Source of the DNA: a virus
Reading direction: 5' to 3' (one strand)
IMG/VR virus record: IMGVR_UViG_3300035698_004632
Coordinates: 1-23,245 of that record
Length of the DNA stretch: 23,245 bases
Both the position numbers and the translations under genes were made by a program. Within the stretch, counting starts at the first letter, position 1. Each line of letters begins with the position of its first letter. This document shows positions 621 to 15,298 of the stretch, piece after piece. The notes under the pieces are model-generated. The model was not told where the DNA came from and did not search any database. It saw only the letters and a program-made list of their open reading frames with translations.

Positions 621-2666
621 ATGCAGAAAGTAGTAAACACAGAAAAAATACCTATTAAATTATGGTTAGATGATATAGAAAATGGGGCTTTACAACAGGC
701 TAAAAATTTGGCTAATTTACCTTTTGCATTTAAACACATAGCCATAATGCCTGATTCCCATCAGGGTTTTGGGATGCCAATAGGCGGTGTTTTGGCTACC
801 ATGAATGCCATAATTCCTAATGCTGTGGGGTGTTTTACTGGGGACACAAAAGTTCCTCTGTTAGATGGTACACAAAAAACACTAAAACAATTGTACAACG
901 AGAAAAATGATGTCTACGTTTATTCATTAGATGAAGAATTGTGTCCTGCTGTTGGGAAAGCCACGCCCAAATTAACAAGAAAAAACAGCAAGATAATGGA
1001 GGTTGTTATTAGTGGGGGCGAATCAATAAGATGTACCTTAGATCATAAGTTTATGTTGTTGAATGGGACATATGTAGAGGCTCAGAATTTAAAAAGATTT
1101 GATAGTTTGATGCCTCTATATAGAGGGTATCAATCAAGAGATGGGTATGAGAGAATTAGAACTTCAGGTAGAGAGGGCATTATTACGCATGTTATGGTGG
1201 CAAATCAATTTTTAGGAGAAAAAAAGGCAGATGAAGTCATACATCATATTAATGGGAACTGGTATAATAATAGTCCCGATAACATAAAATACAAAGACCA
1301 AAGACTGCACAGCAAAGAGCACGTACAACAAAATAATAAATTTAAAACTCCCGAATTTAAAGAACAAAGATTGGAAAAACTGAAGAAAGATGGGTTTTAC
1401 GATGATAAATTTAAAGAACAAAAAAGGATCACAGCCATTAAAAATCTGGTTGAATATAATAAAAGTGATAAAAAGAAAGAAAATGACAAATTATCTGGGC
1501 AAAGAGGAAAGAAATATTTAATTGAATACAATAAATCCGAAAAAGGCAGAAAGAAGTCTGCTGAAATTGGTAAAAGAAGTAACCACAAAGTTCTTTTTAC
1601 CAGACAATTAAATTATAAAGAAGATGTTTATTGTTTAACAGTAGAAAAGTATCATAATTTTGCTTTAGCATCGGGTGTTTTTGTACATAATTGTGATATA
1701 GGTTGTGGAATGAGGTGTGCTGCTTTTGATTATAATGTTACTGATTTAGATACTGAAACTCTTAAGTCTATTATGGCTGAAATTAGAAAAGAAATTCCTA
1801 TGGGATTTCATAAACATGATAAGAAGTGTCATTATTCTGAAATGCCTCCTGGTGAGGAAATAACTGATTGTGTGGAAGAACGAATGCTTACGGTGTATGA
1901 ACATTATGAAAATGCTTCTAAAAGTATGGGAACACTTGGTGGGGGCAATCATTTTTTAGAATGTCAAAAGGATAATCAGGGCAATTTATATTTCATGATT
2001 CATTCTGGTAGTCGTAATTTAGGCAAACAAGTGGCTGATTATCATAATAAAAAAGCAGTGGAATTTAATGAAAAATATTATTCAAAAGTGCCCAAAGAAT
2101 GGGGATTAGCATTTTTACCTATTGATGATGAATTATGTTCTGATTATTTAATGGAAATGAATTATTGTATAGAGTTTGCTAAATATAACAGACTTAAAAT
2201 GATGGCTAAGGTTATTGATATTTTTACTGACAAATTAAATACTACCGTAAAAAATGAGATTGATGTTATTCATAATTATGTTGCCAAAGAAAACCATTTT
2301 GGTAAAAATGTTATGGTTCATAGAAAAGGGGCTATTAGAGCTAGGAAAGATGAGATAGGAATTATACCGGGTTCCCAAGGAACTAAGAGTTATATTGTAA
2401 GAGGATTGGGTAATCCTGAGAGTTTTTGTTCTTGCTCTCATGGTGCTGGCAGACTTATGAGTAGAACTAAGGCTAAGAAAGAGCTTGACTTAAATAAAGA
2501 GATTGAAAGATTGGATAGTCAGGGCATTATACATTCTATTAGAGGTATAAATGACTTGGATGAAGCTCCAAGTGCTTATAAGGATATAGATGTAGTAATG
2601 AAAAATCAAGAAGATTTAGTGGAGATAGTTACTGAACTTACACCCATAGCAGTATTGAAAGGATAA
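621..2666 (+). CDS. rtcB: RNA-splicing ligase RtcB carrying an intein
   Basis: 681-residue precursor: residues 1-70 and 358-681 form a 394-residue RtcB, near the usual size of short RtcBs, and 71-357 are an intein. RtcB joins RNA 2',3'-cyclic-phosphate or 3'-phosphate ends to 5'-OH ends using GTP and Mn2+. Diagnostic motifs are all present: 'DIGCGM' (metal ligands Asp359 and Cys362), 'GGGNHF' (around 440-445), 'HSGSR' (461-465), 'HRKGA', 'PGSQGTKS' and 'SCSHGAGR', whose His607 is the residue that becomes guanylylated. The ATG has AAAGGA upstream and its own consensus promoter. No archease partner is visible in the window. In a phage it most likely repairs host or phage tRNAs; that role is inferred. 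Confidence 0.95.
   Translation: MQKVVNTEKIPIKLWLDDIENGALQQAKNLANLPFAFKHIAIMPDSHQGFGMPIGGVLATMNAIIPNAVGCFTGDTKVPLLDGTQKTLKQLYNEKNDVYVYSLDEELCPAVGKATPKLTRKNSKIMEVVISGGESIRCTLDHKFMLLNGTYVEAQNLKRFDSLMPLYRGYQSRDGYERIRTSGREGIITHVMVANQFLGEKKADEVIHHINGNWYNNSPDNIKYKDQRLHSKEHVQQNNKFKTPEFKEQRLEKLKKDGFYDDKFKEQKRITAIKNLVEYNKSDKKKENDKLSGQRGKKYLIEYNKSEKGRKKSAEIGKRSNHKVLFTRQLNYKEDVYCLTVEKYHNFALASGVFVHNCDIGCGMRCAAFDYNVTDLDTETLKSIMAEIRKEIPMGFHKHDKKCHYSEMPPGEEITDCVEERMLTVYEHYENASKSMGTLGGGNHFLECQKDNQGNLYFMIHSGSRNLGKQVADYHNKKAVEFNEKYYSKVPKEWGLAFLPIDDELCSDYLMEMNYCIEFAKYNRLKMMAKVIDIFTDKLNTTVKNEIDVIHNYVAKENHFGKNVMVHRKGAIRARKDEIGIIPGSQGTKSYIVRGLGNPESFCSCSHGAGRLMSRTKAKKELDLNKEIERLDSQGIIHSIRGINDLDEAPSAYKDIDVVMKNQEDLVEIVTELTPIAVLKG
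831..1691 (+). other. Class 1 intein with HNH homing endonuclease inside rtcB
   Basis: 287 residues (71-357 of the precursor) that splice out at protein level. The block A start is 'CFTGDTKV' (Cys71 nucleophile). Block B has 'CTLDH' (TxxH, His142). The C-terminal end is 'YHNFALASGVFVHN' (terminal His-Asn), followed by the +1 nucleophile Cys358. All canonical class 1 residues are intact, so splicing should work. Residues 207-221, 'IHHINGNWYNNSPDN', are an HNH nuclease core. They are followed by a Lys-rich region with two similar 'EYNKS' units that resembles DNA-binding modules of homing endonucleases. The insertion point is between NAVG and CDIGCGM, directly in front of the metal-binding loop. 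One counted line here has about 37% GC, like the surroundings. Confidence 0.93.
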
Positions 2667-3304: not shown

Positions 3305-5740
3305 GTGGGAACAGAGATAAAGTTAGATTATGTGCCAACAGAGCGGCAATTAAAGGCACATTTATGCAATGAGCAAGTAATATTATTCGGGGGGGCCATC
3401 GGTGGAGGTAAGCTAGCCCACTTATCTACGCCTATATTAACTATAGATGGATGGAAAATAATGGGCGATATTCATCCCGGAGATATTGTCATTGATAAAG
3501 ATGGTCTATCTACTACGGTACTGCGAGAATCTGAAGTAAACTCAACAAGAGATATGTATTGTGTTGTATTTAATGATGGTTCTGATGAGGTATTTGCTTG
3601 TGCTGATCATCAGTGGCTAGTTAGAGATGCTAAGAATCGGGAAAAAGTATATCAAAGGTCTGATGAATATCGAGAAAAGAGACGAAAGAAACGCCCTTAC
3701 AGAGGCACAGGTAAACGCAGAGATTTAATGGAGGCTAATGCTAATAGAGAACATGAACATCTTATGCCTCCAGAACCTTTTGTAACTACAACAAAGGAAA
3801 TGTTTGATACTAAATATTTTAAATCAGGCAATAATCCAAAGGGGGCTAATTATACTATTGATGTGATTAAACCAATACAGTTTTCTAAGAAAGAACATAT
3901 AGTTCCTGATTATGCGCTAGGCCTCTGGCTCGCTGATGGTAGCGCAAACTGTGGTGACATAACGGGTTATGACTATCCAGCTTATGACAAAGTTGCGTCT
4001 TATGGATATGAAATTATTCCTAGAACAGTTGACAAGACAAGAGGATTTAAAGGATTAGCTTTAGATCTTAAAAAAATCGGTGTTTTACACAAAAAACATA
4101 TACCTAAAGAATATCTGTTTGGTTCTTACGATCAAAGGCTGGCTCTTCTAACTGGAATTCTTGATGGTGATGGATGTATCACCACAAAGGGCGCTTGTGA
4201 ATATTCTTCTTGCCTAAAACATTTATCAGATGATGTTTGTTTCCTCTTACGCTCTTTTGGTATTAAATGTAATGTTTGTACCAATGAGGCGTATTCTTAT
4301 AACGACGGTAAAAAGCGTTGTCAGGACAGGTATAGGATTAAATTTAGGACTACTTTGCCCGTATTCACCTTACCTAGACACCTTGCTAGATTACCTAAGA
4401 AGTTAGATAATAGAATGAAGTACCATCATATCACAGACATAATCAAAGTGCCTTCTGAGCCAATGAAGTGTATTGAGGTGGATAGTCCCTCTCATACTTA
4501 TCTATGCTCAAAATCACTAATTCCTACCCATAATTCAGTATGGGGAGTTAATGATATGCTACAAAGTGCTATTGATTTTAGTGGTAATCGAGTAGGCATA
4601 TTTAGATGGGAAGGAACCATATTTGGCAATTCTACCTTTAAGACCATGGAAGAATGGATATTTAGGGTCAAAGGATTGGTTAAATCACATAATCAAACTA
4701 AGAGAGTTATAAAGCTTTTCAATGATAGCGAAATATTTTATGGTGGCCTTAAGCCTTCGTCGTCCACTACAGGTGATTTGTTGGCCACTACTAAATCCCT
4801 TGAGCTATCTTGTTGTTTTTTAGATGAGGTATCTGACTTTCCTGAAGAGGTTATGTTGTTCCTTTTTGGACGTATTGGTAGATGGAGAGGAAGAGATAAT
4901 AAAAATGGAAAAAGAATAATTGTTCCTAAGAGATTGATTTGTAGTTCAAATCCTGTTCCTGGATGGGTCAAGAAAAGATTTATTGATAACCAGTTAGAAA
5001 ATCATGCTTTTATTCAATCTAAAGCAAGCGATAATCCTCATTTAGATGAGAGTTATGAATCTGATCTTAGAAAGATGTGGCCAGAAGATAAGGTTAGACA
5101 GTTATTAGAGGGTGATTGGGACGCTATAGAAGATCATGAAGCACTTATTTCTTACGCTAGTATATTAATGGCTGCTAGGAAGAATATTGAACCAGCAGAG
5201 ACTGATGAGATTATCATTGCCTGTGATGTGGCTGCTTATGGAGATGATTTAACAGTCATAGCCATGAGAAAGGGATTGCACTCTGAAATCATGGAAACTA
5301 TTAAAAATAGTAGTACCATGTATATTGCCGAGAGATTAGCATGGTATAATGCTGCTTATAGTCCAGAATATATAAATGTTGATGCCGTGGGTATTGGTCA
5401 AGGAGTATGTGATAGAATGTTTCAATTAGAACTGCCATGTAACCCCATAGTTGGGGGATCTCCTGCTTTTGATTCAGAGAATTTCTATAATTTAAGAGCA
5501 GAAATGTATTGGCATATTAGAGGACTATTGAAAAGAGAAATCATTGATATCCCTGATGATACAGATTTACACGGTGATTTAGCCTCAATTACATATGAAA
5601 TTAGTAGTGATAAAAAAGTAAAATTGGAAAATAAGCGGGAAATGAAAAAGAGAATAGGTAAAAGCCCTGATTATGCTGATGCTTTTGTTATGTTGTTTGC
5701 TGATGCATGCTCCCCTTATCAAATTAGTGGTGTGATGTAA
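3305..5740 (+). CDS. terL: Terminase large subunit carrying an intein
   Basis: 811-residue precursor; residues 1-36 and 411-811 form a 437-residue packaging ATPase/nuclease, the normal TerL size, and 37-410 are an intein. The ATPase part has a Walker A 'GGAIGGGK'+'S' rejoined only after splicing, a Walker B 'CCFLDE' (about 503-508) and a coupling motif 'CSSNP' (546-550). The RNase-H-like nuclease shows Asp641 ('IIIACDVAAYGDD'), Asp693 ('INVDAVG') and Asp789/Asp792 ('SPDYADAF'). It cuts and pumps phage DNA into the capsid through the portal. The start is GTG with AGGAG eight bases upstream. It is unusual in being on the opposite strand from the head-tail genes. No obvious small subunit lies beside it. 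Confidence 0.95.
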   Translation: MGTEIKLDYVPTERQLKAHLCNEQVILFGGAIGGGKLAHLSTPILTIDGWKIMGDIHPGDIVIDKDGLSTTVLRESEVNSTRDMYCVVFNDGSDEVFACADHQWLVRDAKNREKVYQRSDEYREKRRKKRPYRGTGKRRDLMEANANREHEHLMPPEPFVTTTKEMFDTKYFKSGNNPKGANYTIDVIKPIQFSKKEHIVPDYALGLWLADGSANCGDITGYDYPAYDKVASYGYEIIPRTVDKTRGFKGLALDLKKIGVLHKKHIPKEYLFGSYDQRLALLTGILDGDGCITTKGACEYSSCLKHLSDDVCFLLRSFGIKCNVCTNEAYSYNDGKKRCQDRYRIKFRTTLPVFTLPRHLARLPKKLDNRMKYHHITDIIKVPSEPMKCIEVDSPSHTYLCSKSLIPTHNSVWGVNDMLQSAIDFSGNRVGIFRWEGTIFGNSTFKTMEEWIFRVKGLVKSHNQTKRVIKLFNDSEIFYGGLKPSSSTTGDLLATTKSLELSCCFLDEVSDFPEEVMLFLFGRIGRWRGRDNKNGKRIIVPKRLICSSNPVPGWVKKRFIDNQLENHAFIQSKASDNPHLDESYESDLRKMWPEDKVRQLLEGDWDAIEDHEALISYASILMAARKNIEPAETDEIIIACDVAAYGDDLTVIAMRKGLHSEIMETIKNSSTMYIAERLAWYNAAYSPEYINVDAVGIGQGVCDRMFQLELPCNPIVGGSPAFDSENFYNLRAEMYWHIRGLLKREIIDIPDDTDLHGDLASITYEISSDKKVKLENKREMKKRIGKSPDYADAFVMLFADACSPYQISGVM
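3413..4534 (+). other. Class 3 (WCT) intein with LAGLIDADG endonuclease in the terminase P-loop
   Basis: 374 residues (37-410). It starts 'LAHLSTPILTIDGW', with no Cys/Ser/Thr at position 1, and ends 'SLIPTHN' before Ser411. The class 3 signature is complete: Trp104 in block B ('CADHQW'), Cys389 in block F ('MKCIEVDSPSH') and Thr408 before the terminal His-Asn. In class 3 inteins the block F Cys makes the first branched intermediate, replacing residue 1. Two LAGLIDADG helices are seen: 'ALGLWLADGS' (204-213) and 'LLTGILDGDG' (281-290). The insertion splits Walker A between Lys36 and Ser411. Two counted lines give about 47-53% GC against about 35% in the extein, which suggests separate origin. 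The exact first residue (Leu37 or Ala38) is set by rejoining GGGK to S. Confidence 0.93.
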
Positions 5741-5990: not shown

Positions 5991-7229
5991 ATGTATAACG
6001 CTATAATTACTAAAATCACAAATATTCGCCCACACCCAAACGCTGATAGACTGAATTTGGCTACAGCATCCGGGTATCAGGTTATTGTTAATATCTCACA
6101 ACAGGAAGAACTTGGAGTGTTTTTTCCAACTGATGGAAAATTATCCCCAAAAATGCTTCTAAATAATAATTTGTATAGCAAACATCCTGAAACCGGTGAG
6201 TCTATGGGGGGATTTTTTAGTGTGAGTGGACGAGTAAGAGTTCAAAGATTTAGGGGTGAAAAGTCTGAGGGTATTTGGCTTCCTTTGATATCACTAACTT
6301 GGACAGGTGTAAATATATCTAAGTTGAAATCAGGTATGGAATTTTCGACCTTAAATGGTAAGTTGGTTTGTGAAAAATATTTTACTCCTCAAACTCTTAA
6401 AAGTCAAGGAAGTAACAATAGACTTCTTAAAAAGAAACTTTATCCTTGTTTTTATAGGCATTATGATACCGACCATTTACAGAGATGTCTTTTTGAATTT
6501 AAAGAAGGGGATGTTCTGTCTATCACAGAAAAATGTCACGGATCAAGTGGTAGAACTACACGAACATTAAAAGTGCCGTTGAAGAAATGGTGGCATAGAT
6601 TTATTCATCCTAAAAATATTTGGGAATATGTTACTGGCTCAAGAAATATGATTCTAAATATGGTTGGTGATGCCCCTAAAGGTGTTAACGGTACTATAAG
6701 AAAAGAAATATACACCACAATAAAACATATAGGACTTCAAAAAGGAGAGACTTTATATTATGAAATAGTAGGATATGATAATGGTTCTCCTATTATGGGA
6801 ACTCAGAATATTCAAGATAAGAATCTACAAATTCTGTATGGAAGAACAATGGTATATCAGTATGGCTGTTCTTTAATAAAGCCTTTTGATTTTTATATTT
6901 ATAGAATAACCATGACAAATGAAGATGGTTATACTGTAGAGTATTTGCCTAAGAAGGTTGAGAAGAGATGTGAAGAATTAGGATTGAAAAGAGTTCCTTG
7001 GATAAAACAACCTTTTATTTATAATGGTGATGAGGTGGGACTATTAGAAATATGTACTAACTTAGCAGAGGGCAGAAGTCTATTAGACAGTACACATATT
7101 AAAGAAGGTGTGGTTATTTATAATCATACTAAAGGTAAGGGATATAAGCTAAAATCTTTTGCTTTTTTAGAACTGGAAGACAGACAAAAATCAAATGATA
7201 ATTATGTTGATGTGGAAGAAATAAATTGA
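5991..7229 (+). CDS. ATP-dependent RNA ligase (DRB0094/Rnl5-like)
   Basis: 412 residues. An N-terminal OB-fold-like domain (about 1-125) opens with 'ITNIRPHPNADRLNLA', resembling the tRNA-binding OB domains of EMAP/PheT type. The nucleotidyltransferase core follows: motif I 'KCHGSS' with the AMP-accepting Lys181, a motif III-like 'LYYEIVG' (255-261), motif IV 'EGVVI' (372-376) and motif V 'KLKS' (386-389). The OB-first order and KxHG motif fit the Deinococcus DRB0094-type RNA ligases, which seal 3'-OH/5'-phosphate nicks in RNA. The ATG has AAGGA upstream and the stop overlaps the next start. With RtcB and a tRNA nearby, RNA repair is the likely job. A DNA ligase is less likely because of the KxHG motif. 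Confidence 0.85.
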   Translation: MYNAIITKITNIRPHPNADRLNLATASGYQVIVNISQQEELGVFFPTDGKLSPKMLLNNNLYSKHPETGESMGGFFSVSGRVRVQRFRGEKSEGIWLPLISLTWTGVNISKLKSGMEFSTLNGKLVCEKYFTPQTLKSQGSNNRLLKKKLYPCFYRHYDTDHLQRCLFEFKEGDVLSITEKCHGSSGRTTRTLKVPLKKWWHRFIHPKNIWEYVTGSRNMILNMVGDAPKGVNGTIRKEIYTTIKHIGLQKGETLYYEIVGYDNGSPIMGTQNIQDKNLQILYGRTMVYQYGCSLIKPFDFYIYRITMTNEDGYTVEYLPKKVEKRCEELGLKRVPWIKQPFIYNGDEVGLLEICTNLAEGRSLLDSTHIKEGVVIYNHTKGKGYKLKSFAFLELEDRQKSNDNYVDVEEIN

Positions 7230-8636: not shown

Positions 8637-8711
8637 TGGATAGATAGCTCAATTGGTTAGAGCAACGCTCTTTTAAGGCGTAGGTTTTGGGTTCGAGTCC
8701 CCCTAGCCACC
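8637..8711 (+). tRNA. tRNA-Lys(UUU)-like gene, irregular T arm
   Basis: The D arm GCTC/GAGC (8647-8650 with 8660-8663) and anticodon stem ACGCT/GGCGT (8665-8669 with 8677-8681) are intact. The anticodon loop is CTTTTAA, giving anticodon TTT (8672-8674), hence Lys. The T loop TTCGAGT (8692-8698) is normal, but its stem has only three pairs, GGG/CCC. The acceptor TGGATAG pairs with CTAGCCA at six of seven positions with one A.G mismatch and leaves three rather than two linker bases. No encoded CCA end is seen in the right place. It looks like one or two bases were lost on the 3' side, so it may be functional but imperfect, or decaying. An AAA-rich genome would benefit from it. Confidence 0.72.
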
Positions 8712-8771
8712 CTTAAACAATTACAATAGAAAGTATTTTGTGAGTATATGGCTGAAAATTAAAATACATCA

Positions 8772-12696: not shown

Positions 12697-13569
12697 TTAA
12701 GGAGCACCGCATTCATTATCATTAAGAGTTATTGTTCGTGTATGATATTGATAAATACTTTGATATGGTGTTGATATATTACACACAGTACTGGATTTAG
12801 CACTTATATAACTTCTATAATAATTTCCAGTAACCGTACCACCGGAACAAGCCGTTGGTTTTAATGTTATTTGTGCTGGATAAGTACCATCAAGTACACC
12901 ATCACCACCAGAACCTATTTCCCACCCATCATTAACACAACTATAAAAAAGACTATATGTACTTGAAGCATCTGTTGTAATACATGAATTTTCCAGAGGC
13001 CATGCTCGACAACTATTACCATCAGCTGCAAATCCTTGTTGAGAGTATGTTGGAACAGATGCTCCAAAATTCGGAGAGCAATCATAAATACTGCTTACAC
13101 GAGGAAGCACTGCATCTCGTTTATATACTTTTACAAAAGCAAGTGTCGTATAATTATCATCAGTATAGTAGCAAGTATGACTTTTTTCACTGTATGTAAC
13201 GGTCATACCTGTACTGGAAAATTCACAACTACCACACGTTAAACAATTACCACAACATTCTTCACACGTATCATAATATGCAGTAATAAGACTAGTATCT
13301 ATTGGTGTTGGGGTATTGCTGTCAGGTGTATATGAATCAACCATATAACAATTACCATCATATACAATTATAAGGCCAACATAACTACTTAAATTCGAGT
13401 TAGTAAGTAGTCCCGGCATTGATTCATCACAATCTGTGCACAATACTAAACAATGATTGAGCGTATACCATACAGAGCTTGCAGAGCAGTCTAATGATAA
13501 GTGTTTTATAGGACCACCACCAACTGTTTGCAATATATGCCCATTTCGTTTTCTCATGTGCAATGTCAT
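12697..13569 (-). CDS. Cysteine-rich, Ser/Thr/Tyr-rich probable virion surface protein
   Basis: 290 residues with 19 cysteines, including the cluster 'CEECCGNCLTCGSC' (about 102-115), and many Ser, Thr and Tyr. There is no signal peptide, catalytic motif or membrane helix. The composition is that of an extracellular, disulfide- or metal-stabilised protein, and its place at the distal end of the tail operon suggests a tail tip or fibre component. It starts at the ATG at 13569, which overlaps the TGA of a 16-codon upstream ORF (ATGA). A second in-frame ATG four codons in opens 'MRKRNGHILQTVGG', nearly the same as that upstream peptide, so the true start may be either. Function not known. Confidence 0.65.
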   Translation of the reverse strand: MTLHMRKRNGHILQTVGGGPIKHLSLDCSASSVWYTLNHCLVLCTDCDESMPGLLTNSNLSSYVGLIIVYDGNCYMVDSYTPDSNTPTPIDTSLITAYYDTCEECCGNCLTCGSCEFSSTGMTVTYSEKSHTCYYTDDNYTTLAFVKVYKRDAVLPRVSSIYDCSPNFGASVPTYSQQGFAADGNSCRAWPLENSCITTDASSTYSLFYSCVNDGWEIGSGGDGVLDGTYPAQITLKPTACSGGTVTGNYYRSYISAKSSTVCNISTPYQSIYQYHTRTITLNDNECGAP

Positions 13570-13616
13570 TTAGTCCCGCCAAGGGTTCTCAGTAAATGTC
13601 CGTCTCGGTATCGCAT
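13566..13616 (-). CDS. 16-codon mini-ORF repeating the next gene's N-terminus
   Basis: It encodes MRYRDGHLLRTLGGTK, with AAAAGGA a few bases upstream of the ATG at 13616, and stops at a TGA overlapping the next ATG (ATGA). The peptide aligns without gaps to MRKRNGHILQTVGGGP, residues 5-20 of the downstream 290-residue protein, while many codons differ at synonymous positions. It could be a leader peptide coupling translation, or the surviving head of a replaced homologous gene. I cannot tell whether it is translated. Confidence 0.5.
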   Translation of the reverse strand: MRYRDGHLLRTLGGTK

Positions 13617-13625
13617 ACAATCCTT

Positions 13626-14561
13626 TTATTTTGTGCTGATTACTCGGCTTCCAATTGTATCGACTTGGTAGTGGACACCAGCAGTCGCTATCAAAGCGTC
13701 ACCAACATAAGCATCACCGGTCGCAGCGACGCGAGTTAACGTAAACATAAACTGATCTCCAATCTTAAAGTTAGTCCCTGTAATGGCTGCGAAGTCGGTC
13801 CTAATAGTTTCATACTGGGTATCGAAAACAGAATCTGGAGAGTCAATAGTAACAGCGGCATTAAGGGTAGTTCCATCTCGCATTAAAATATATGTTAATC
13901 GCCATTGAACATTATCAGTCCCACTTGGAGCTGTTATGCCCTGCCAATGGACATGGAATGTTAAGTCAGTCCCTTCTTTGTAATCATGCTGTAACTCAAA
14001 CCCGCCATGCACCAACTCTCCAACAGCAAAAGCATAAGTTTCAATTGTGGTGTCAGCCCCTGCCTCATCTACGAACGAAACAACGCCAGGAGCAGAAGAA
14101 GTCGGCTTTGTCAATAAATAACCAGCAATGTTAATATCTTTATAAACTGGAGTTGCAAGCGCAATTGTTTTGGCAGCGCCAGTAGTAACAATAAGGTCTG
14201 TTGGGGCTGTGGTATCTGTTTTTACTTCTGGCGTTAACGCTTTTGTGAACGTGCCTGTACTTGTCGAGGTTATACTTTTATTAAAAGCAAACGCATCAGC
14301 AGATTCATCCCATATCAATAAAGGCGTGCCGGTGATGTTTGGCAATGACAATAGTGTTACGTCTGCATCGCTGGCATGAATAAAGATATGACCAGCCGTG
14401 CCGGGGGTGTTCTTTGTAGAATAAATTCCTCCAGCAGTCGCCCCGTCGCCAACATAAAGAACATCTGTTCCACCATCCCACCCAGGCTCACCGTCTAGCA
14501 TGGTGCGGGATGGTGTATATGTCCCAGCGTCTCGCAGTCCAAATCTTAAAGTAACAGCCAT
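13626..14561 (-). CDS. Tail fibre-like protein (imported, GC-rich)
   Basis: 311 residues. The N-terminus 'RTMLDGEPGWDGGTDVLYVGDGATAGG' (about 19-45) is the short repeat found at the start of many phage tail-fibre and tropism-determinant proteins (usual form GE.awD.dt..lYVGDG). The middle is Thr/Ala-rich with low-complexity beta features. The C-terminal part (about 175-305) reads like a compact beta domain ('FHVHWQG', 'VQWRLTYILMRDG'). It probably contributes to host recognition at the tail tip. Its start overlaps the upstream stop by one base (TAATG). Counted lines have 42-55% GC against about 30% in the neighbour, so it was probably acquired from another phage. Confidence 0.72.
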   Translation of the reverse strand: MAVTLRFGLRDAGTYTPSRTMLDGEPGWDGGTDVLYVGDGATAGGIYSTKNTPGTAGHIFIHASDADVTLLSLPNITGTPLLIWDESADAFAFNKSITSTSTGTFTKALTPEVKTDTTAPTDLIVTTGAAKTIALATPVYKDINIAGYLLTKPTSSAPGVVSFVDEAGADTTIETYAFAVGELVHGGFELQHDYKEGTDLTFHVHWQGITAPSGTDNVQWRLTYILMRDGTTLNAAVTIDSPDSVFDTQYETIRTDFAAITGTNFKIGDQFMFTLTRVAATGDAYVGDALIATAGVHYQVDTIGSRVISTK

Positions 14562-15298
14562 TAAAATCCTACTCCCGTTACATCTGCGTCGCAGTCTTCT
14601 GCGGTATCAATTACAGTATTAGTTTCCGCAGATAATATAATTCCACTATTTAAAGGAACTGTAATTATTCTAGTATATCGTTCAAGTGCTCCATCAGTTC
14701 CATTCCAAACTGTACGAGAAATAGGAAAACTTACACTATCATCAGAAGCTGTTGCACTATCTGTAAAAGTATCTGACTGAGCAGCTAGGGTATTTAAATC
14801 TGAAGGCAACATTACATAAGGAAAATCAGTATCAGTATTGGTAGCCACACCCCCGCCACCCATCATAGTTCCACATCTTTGTCCAAACCACATATAAGAA
14901 ATAATATCATTTGATTCTAAAGTTATTCCTTTTGTGATATCTGAAACTAAAGAAACATCTGAAGCTATAGGATTAGTAACATATACTTTTATTTTAGTAG
15001 AATCATCAGATGATAATATTCTAGAAGTTATACCATTAGATGTCTCAGTGTACAACATAGGGTACACTTCTACATATGTTGTATCTGACCAAACATAATC
15101 TGATATAACACTGCCCCATCTAACTGCTGGACCATGTTCCCCGTGGCTAATAATTTTTCCAAAAGCTCCTTGTGTCATGGTTAAGGGGGCAGCCACAGAT
15201 ATATTCTCAGAATTTTTGACTTTATTAAGCCACTTAGCAGAAATTACATCTCCCGCTTTTATGTTCTTCATCGGTTTATTTTTGGGGATATTGGCCAT
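14561..15298 (-). CDS. Virion structural protein, tail region
   Basis: 245 residues. The N-terminus 'MKNIKAGDVISAKWLNKVKN' followed by a 'PLTMTQGAFGKII' stretch resembles the small domain seen at the start of several phage tail and fibre proteins ('G..isA.dlN.l'). The rest is Ser/Thr/Asp-rich beta-type sequence with few charged helices, as in secreted virion parts. It lies between two other distal tail genes. A baseplate or tail-tip role is inferred from position; no enzyme motif is seen. AT-rich like the rest of the genome. Confidence 0.6.
   Translation of the reverse strand: MANIPKNKPMKNIKAGDVISAKWLNKVKNSENISVAAPLTMTQGAFGKIISHGEHGPAVRWGSVISDYVWSDTTYVEVYPMLYTETSNGITSRILSSDDSTKIKVYVTNPIASDVSLVSDITKGITLESNDIISYMWFGQRCGTMMGGGGVATNTDTDFPYVMLPSDLNTLAAQSDTFTDSATASDDSVSFPISRTVWNGTDGALERYTRIITVPLNSGIILSAETNTVIDTAEDCDADVTGVGF

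Follow-up and report, generated by a model that had tools for sequence, protein, structure and literature searches.

The 23,245-base virus record IMGVR_UViG_3300035698_004632 was analysed over its whole length, hereafter called the window. It carries on its minus strand, in this order, the genes for the tape measure, p265, p245 and p311, a 16-codon mini-open reading frame (mini-ORF), and the genes for p290 and p196 (coordinates in Table 1). The mini-ORF, for which the original prediction had given no strand, also lies on the minus strand; its peptide repeats the beginning of the p290 protein, and it probably marks where one gene replaced another, being left over from a neighbouring gene that was swapped in from another phage. 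As called, the p290 open reading frame (ORF) begins at the ATG at 13569 and reads MTLHMRKRNGHILQTVGG (MTLH, not MRKR), and the p290-side copy of the repeated motif begins at an internal ATG at 13557. The description of the motif as the N-terminus of the 290-residue protein therefore holds if translation starts at 13557, and does not hold for the called start. The mini-ORF ATG and the ATG at 13557 are 59 nt apart, which places the two copies in different reading frames.

The peptides MRYRDGHLLRTLGGTK and MRKRNGHILQTVGG align without gaps over 14 of 14 residues, with nine identities and a BLOSUM62 score of 53, and the underlying DNA is identical at 28 of 42 nt (67%), bearing out the earlier observation of a gapless match despite differing codons. 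The likeness ends at the GG pair, beyond which the sequences are unrelated, and Tandem Repeats Finder reported no array. The mini-ORF might also be a spurious frame that resembles the p290 start by chance, intergenic mini-ORFs being common and the matching peptide just 14 residues long. As a control, 2,074 ORFs from 142 other fetched loci and the window were examined for nearby ATG-initiated mini-ORFs 10-50 codons long, and each of these was compared with the start of the next ORF. In these 3,218 start-to-start comparisons the mini-ORF/p290 pair scored 53 and the next best 30, and chance is consequently rejected for this layout as an exceedingly improbable explanation. On sequence grounds, the p290 start is genuinely present a second time in the mini-ORF. 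Of the nucleotide differences between the copies, 7, 1 and 6 fall at codon positions one, two and three, respectively, and when equally many changes were placed at random, 0.05-0.2% of simulations gave a protein score this high; both copies have therefore diverged as protein-coding sequence. Such coding divergence would be expected of two copies that each served, in separate lineages, as the start of a functional gene.

The composition of the DNA on the two sides of the joint differs. The GC content of p311 is 45%, compared with 33% for the contig outside it, and no other stretch of the same length exceeds 40.4%; GC at third codon positions (GC3) is raised as well (0.35 versus 0.22), and p311 is compositionally foreign to the window. 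The best single high-GC segment spans 13409-14604, and since the support limits of its p290-side end are 13370-13634, the joint between the mini-ORF and p290 lies inside them. The codons of the mini-ORF point the same way: 6 of 13 third positions are G or C, and its codon usage has a probability of 0.003 under that of the other genes and 0.56 under that of p311. In the p290 start, G or C fills 2 of 13 third positions, and the codons resemble those of the resident genes (P = 0.02 when tested against p311 usage). Codon usage and GC3 together therefore make the p311-adjacent copy look like p311 and the p290 copy like p290, and a change of composition at the joint is seen both in the limits of the GC segment and in the codon test.

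These differences bear on the possibility that a 59-nt stretch spanning the p290 start was simply doubled in place within one lineage, the copies then diverging with both under selection. Such a tandem duplication would account for the local layout common to the two copies, in which an AAA codon and stop are followed by a spacer of 8-9 nt, an ATG and the motif. It is nevertheless unlikely, as the third-position GC of each copy departs in the direction of its neighbouring gene, and a useless copy would not have kept the encoded peptide so similar while its DNA fell to 67% identity.

The gene upstream of the joint is mobile in part. Counterparts of the C-terminal ~200 residues of p311, with 45-84% identity, occur in over 50 IMG/VR contigs; there are more remote copies as well. 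In a comparison that covered the flanks only, these contigs, many of them fragments, had almost no other gene in common with the window and carried differing next genes. The module flanking the joint has thus been exchanged between otherwise dissimilar phages; in its relatives, its GC content averages that of their own genomes. It is predicted with good confidence to fold as a beta domain (predicted local distance difference test score, pLDDT, of 88), and the structures closest to it come from parts of collagen-like viral proteins and of phage proteins. Among the former, the predicted fold of the C-terminal domain (13626-14231, minus strand) resembles parts of giant-virus collagen-like proteins (Klosneuvirus, Catovirus). 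Solved structures gave weak similarity to the lambda tail-tip protein and to carbohydrate-binding modules; no solved-structure relative was found by sequence, and neither Pfam nor PHROG gave a match. The module may form a fibre tip, probably one that binds a receptor. As an uncharacterised fibre-type module, the domain is widespread in otherwise dissimilar environmental phages.

Composition, codon usage, the codon-position pattern and the mobile upstream gene together favour a replacement scar, one of the possibilities raised in the original prediction, and what lies at this module boundary is an incomplete copy with homology to the gene beside it. We infer the kind of donor, the position of the crossover and which gene was replaced as follows. 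In the donor phage, a p311-like fibre gene would have stood before a p290 homologue of its own, starting MRYRDGHLLRTLGG. Recombination would have placed the donor p311, the intergenic ribosome site and 14 codons of the donor p290 homologue before the resident p290, so that the right-hand joint of the exchange would lie inside the donor gene 3' of p311. The join would have been slightly out of register, with resident DNA returning 17 nt 5' of the ATG at 13557 (ACTAAATGACATTGCAC). Resident sequence would then resume at ACT AAA TGA, probably the last codons of the replaced gene, and continue into the resident p290, leaving a diverged 59-nt duplication of a gene start that is ended by an in-frame TGA. 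Genes of the p311 family end in xK followed by a stop, and the TK-stop ending of the mini-ORF fits the end of a replaced gene for this reason. A longer resemblance between the mini-ORF end, RTLGGTK-stop, and the p311-family ending DTLGSRxIxTK-stop was also considered, and is probably coincidental except for the TK-stop itself.

Several observations weigh against a replacement. The DNA 5' of the two ATGs, with its AAA-stop and 8-9 nt spacer, suggests homology between the copies in that region as well, at a non-significant level (P about 0.3-0.4); the GC content of p311 might partly reflect its amino-acid make-up, though its third positions are also raised; the codon comparison rests on 13 codons; and neither a donor nor an unscarred relative was found in IMG/VR, GTDB or INPHARED. 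The reading is built on one genome. That genome is a metagenome contig, and another explanation would be a chimera of two related phages made by assembly or by reads; this is most improbable, as the exact blocks common to the copies are too short for typical graph-assembly collapse.

Whatever its origin, the mini-ORF has the features of a coupled leader, namely a ribosome site and a stop that overlaps the start of p290. An AAGGA lies a few nt 5' of its ATG with a duplex energy of -5.6 kcal/mol, within the range of many genes in the window, and its TGA overlaps the p290 ATG at 13569 as ATGA; the good ribosome site and the ATGA junction reported earlier were both confirmed. The ribosome site of p290 is poorer, with a mismatched GGCGG before the ATG at 13569 and nothing well placed before that at 13557. 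Given the normal site of the mini-ORF, the weak site of p290 and the ATGA overlap, the mini-ORF could reasonably act at present in termination-reinitiation, and we regard it as an evenly balanced question whether ribosomes now enter through it and, on terminating at the ATGA, restart on p290.

The same signals could be taken to mean that the mini-ORF, as a functional leader peptide or an upstream ORF coupled to p290, is retained for the sake of its sequence and regulates p290 or supplies it with a peptide, and the protein-level conservation between the copies would agree with this. However, descent from a full gene explains that conservation equally, the mini-ORF is absent from every p311 relative seen, and the RNA has no special fold (z -0.47 for 131 nt, in a pseudoknot-free model), which makes selection for the peptide itself a doubtful proposition, more so than tandem duplication. 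The absence of an unusual stimulatory structure also bears on a programmed -1 frameshift that would fuse the mini-ORF to p290 and give a tandem motif. The frame relation proposed for such an event is correct, p290 being in the -1 frame with AAA TGA within the overlap, but the overlap contains no X-XXY-YYZ slippery heptamer, and frameshifting is accordingly very improbable.

The motif was further suggested to be a tag conserved across this phage group on its distal tail proteins. A search for M+xRxGHxLxTxGG at protein starts, made by degenerate DNA-pattern scans of IMG/VR and GTDB genomes with matches read in frame, found it at no other gene start; the patterns hold parts of the motif fixed, so strongly diverged versions would escape, and records very near the window were possibly left out. 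The matches that were obtained lay within other genes (by eye, threonine synthase-like and shikimate kinase-like), were antisense or were random. Nor was the motif present in any of about 80 p311-module loci, where no peptide scored above 35 against it, and the idea of a group-wide tag is not sustained by these results. For p290 itself, nothing usable was found in IMG/VR, GTDB genomes, INPHARED, PHROGs, Pfam or 23 whole records, and its single-sequence structure prediction was uninformative (pLDDT 38). It is improbable, though less so than frameshifting, that the motif is a working signal (e.g. for tail-tip docking) of an unsampled p290 family, of which the mini-ORF would supply a second copy as a free peptide from the same coupled translation event.

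Table 1. Features at the joint between p311 and p290 (positions in the window).
Feature	Position	Strand	Remarks
Mini-ORF, 16 codons	13566-13616	-	Peptide MRYRDGHLLRTLGGTK, then stop; ATG at 13616, TGA end at 13566
Copy 1, mini-ORF codons 1-14, MRYRDGHLLRTLGG	13575-13616	-	Interpreted as the start of a donor p290 homologue; GC3 6/13, p311-like codons
Mini-ORF tail ACT AAA TGA (TK-stop)	13566-13574	-	Resident DNA probably resumes here
AAGGA, mini-ORF ribosome-binding site	13621-13625	-	
p290, cysteine-rich, function not assigned	12697-13569	-	Candidate starts 13569 (MTLH) and 13557 (MRKR)
Copy 2, resident p290 start region, MRKRNGHILQTVGG	13516-13557	-	GC3 2/13, resident-like codons
p311, compositionally foreign, 45% GC	13626-14561	-	~200 C-terminal residues form the fibre-type beta-domain module

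Elsewhere in the window, an RtcB RNA ligase gene (621-2666, plus strand) is split by an intein that bears an HNH endonuclease according to Pfam, and a second RNA ligase is found at 5991-7229. The large terminase ORF (3305-5740, plus strand) also holds an intein, located within the Walker A region; by eye, it begins with Leu and has CIEVDSP close to its end, features reminiscent of class 3 inteins. A transfer RNA for lysine (TTT; 8637-8712, plus strand) sits between primase-like and DnaB-like genes. The tape-measure protein had no relatives in IMG/VR, and the 196-residue protein and p311 had none in INPHARED.

Gene swapping between phages is a familiar process, and the joint described here is unusually readable. 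Read as a replacement scar, it would give a base-pair view of the exchange of a fibre-type gene that spares the gene next to it, the joint preserving a ribosome site and a brief leader ahead of the resident gene, and the retained codons would be the fingerprint of an unseen donor phage in which a p290 homologue comes after the fibre gene. Tiny ORFs that resemble the start of the next gene may mark recombination joints, and the start-to-start scan used here is applicable to large phage collections.

The closest parallel is the joint of genes 67 and 68 in Island3, among the Cluster I mycobacteriophages, where the 18 C-terminal residues of the small gene's product are also found in that of the preceding gene and recombination between sequences of ~50 bp has been proposed (PMC3029335). 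In both cases a module boundary bears a small gene in which one end of the neighbouring gene recurs at the protein and DNA levels, whereas at the present joint the N-terminus of the downstream gene is repeated, in a 16-codon ORF, the DNA is more diverged and there is compositional evidence of import. Start-Associated Sequences of Cluster K mycobacteriophages are likewise short repeated elements tied to translation starts (PMC3203893), but those are DNA-level repeats in many copies upstream of starts, and here two copies are conserved as protein rather than as DNA. More generally, the locus resembles the mosaic boundaries that illegitimate recombination produces near gene ends, where the exchange leaves both genes intact (PMC3029335); unlike most such boundaries, which leave no trace, this one appears to have retained 14 codons of the donor's next gene.
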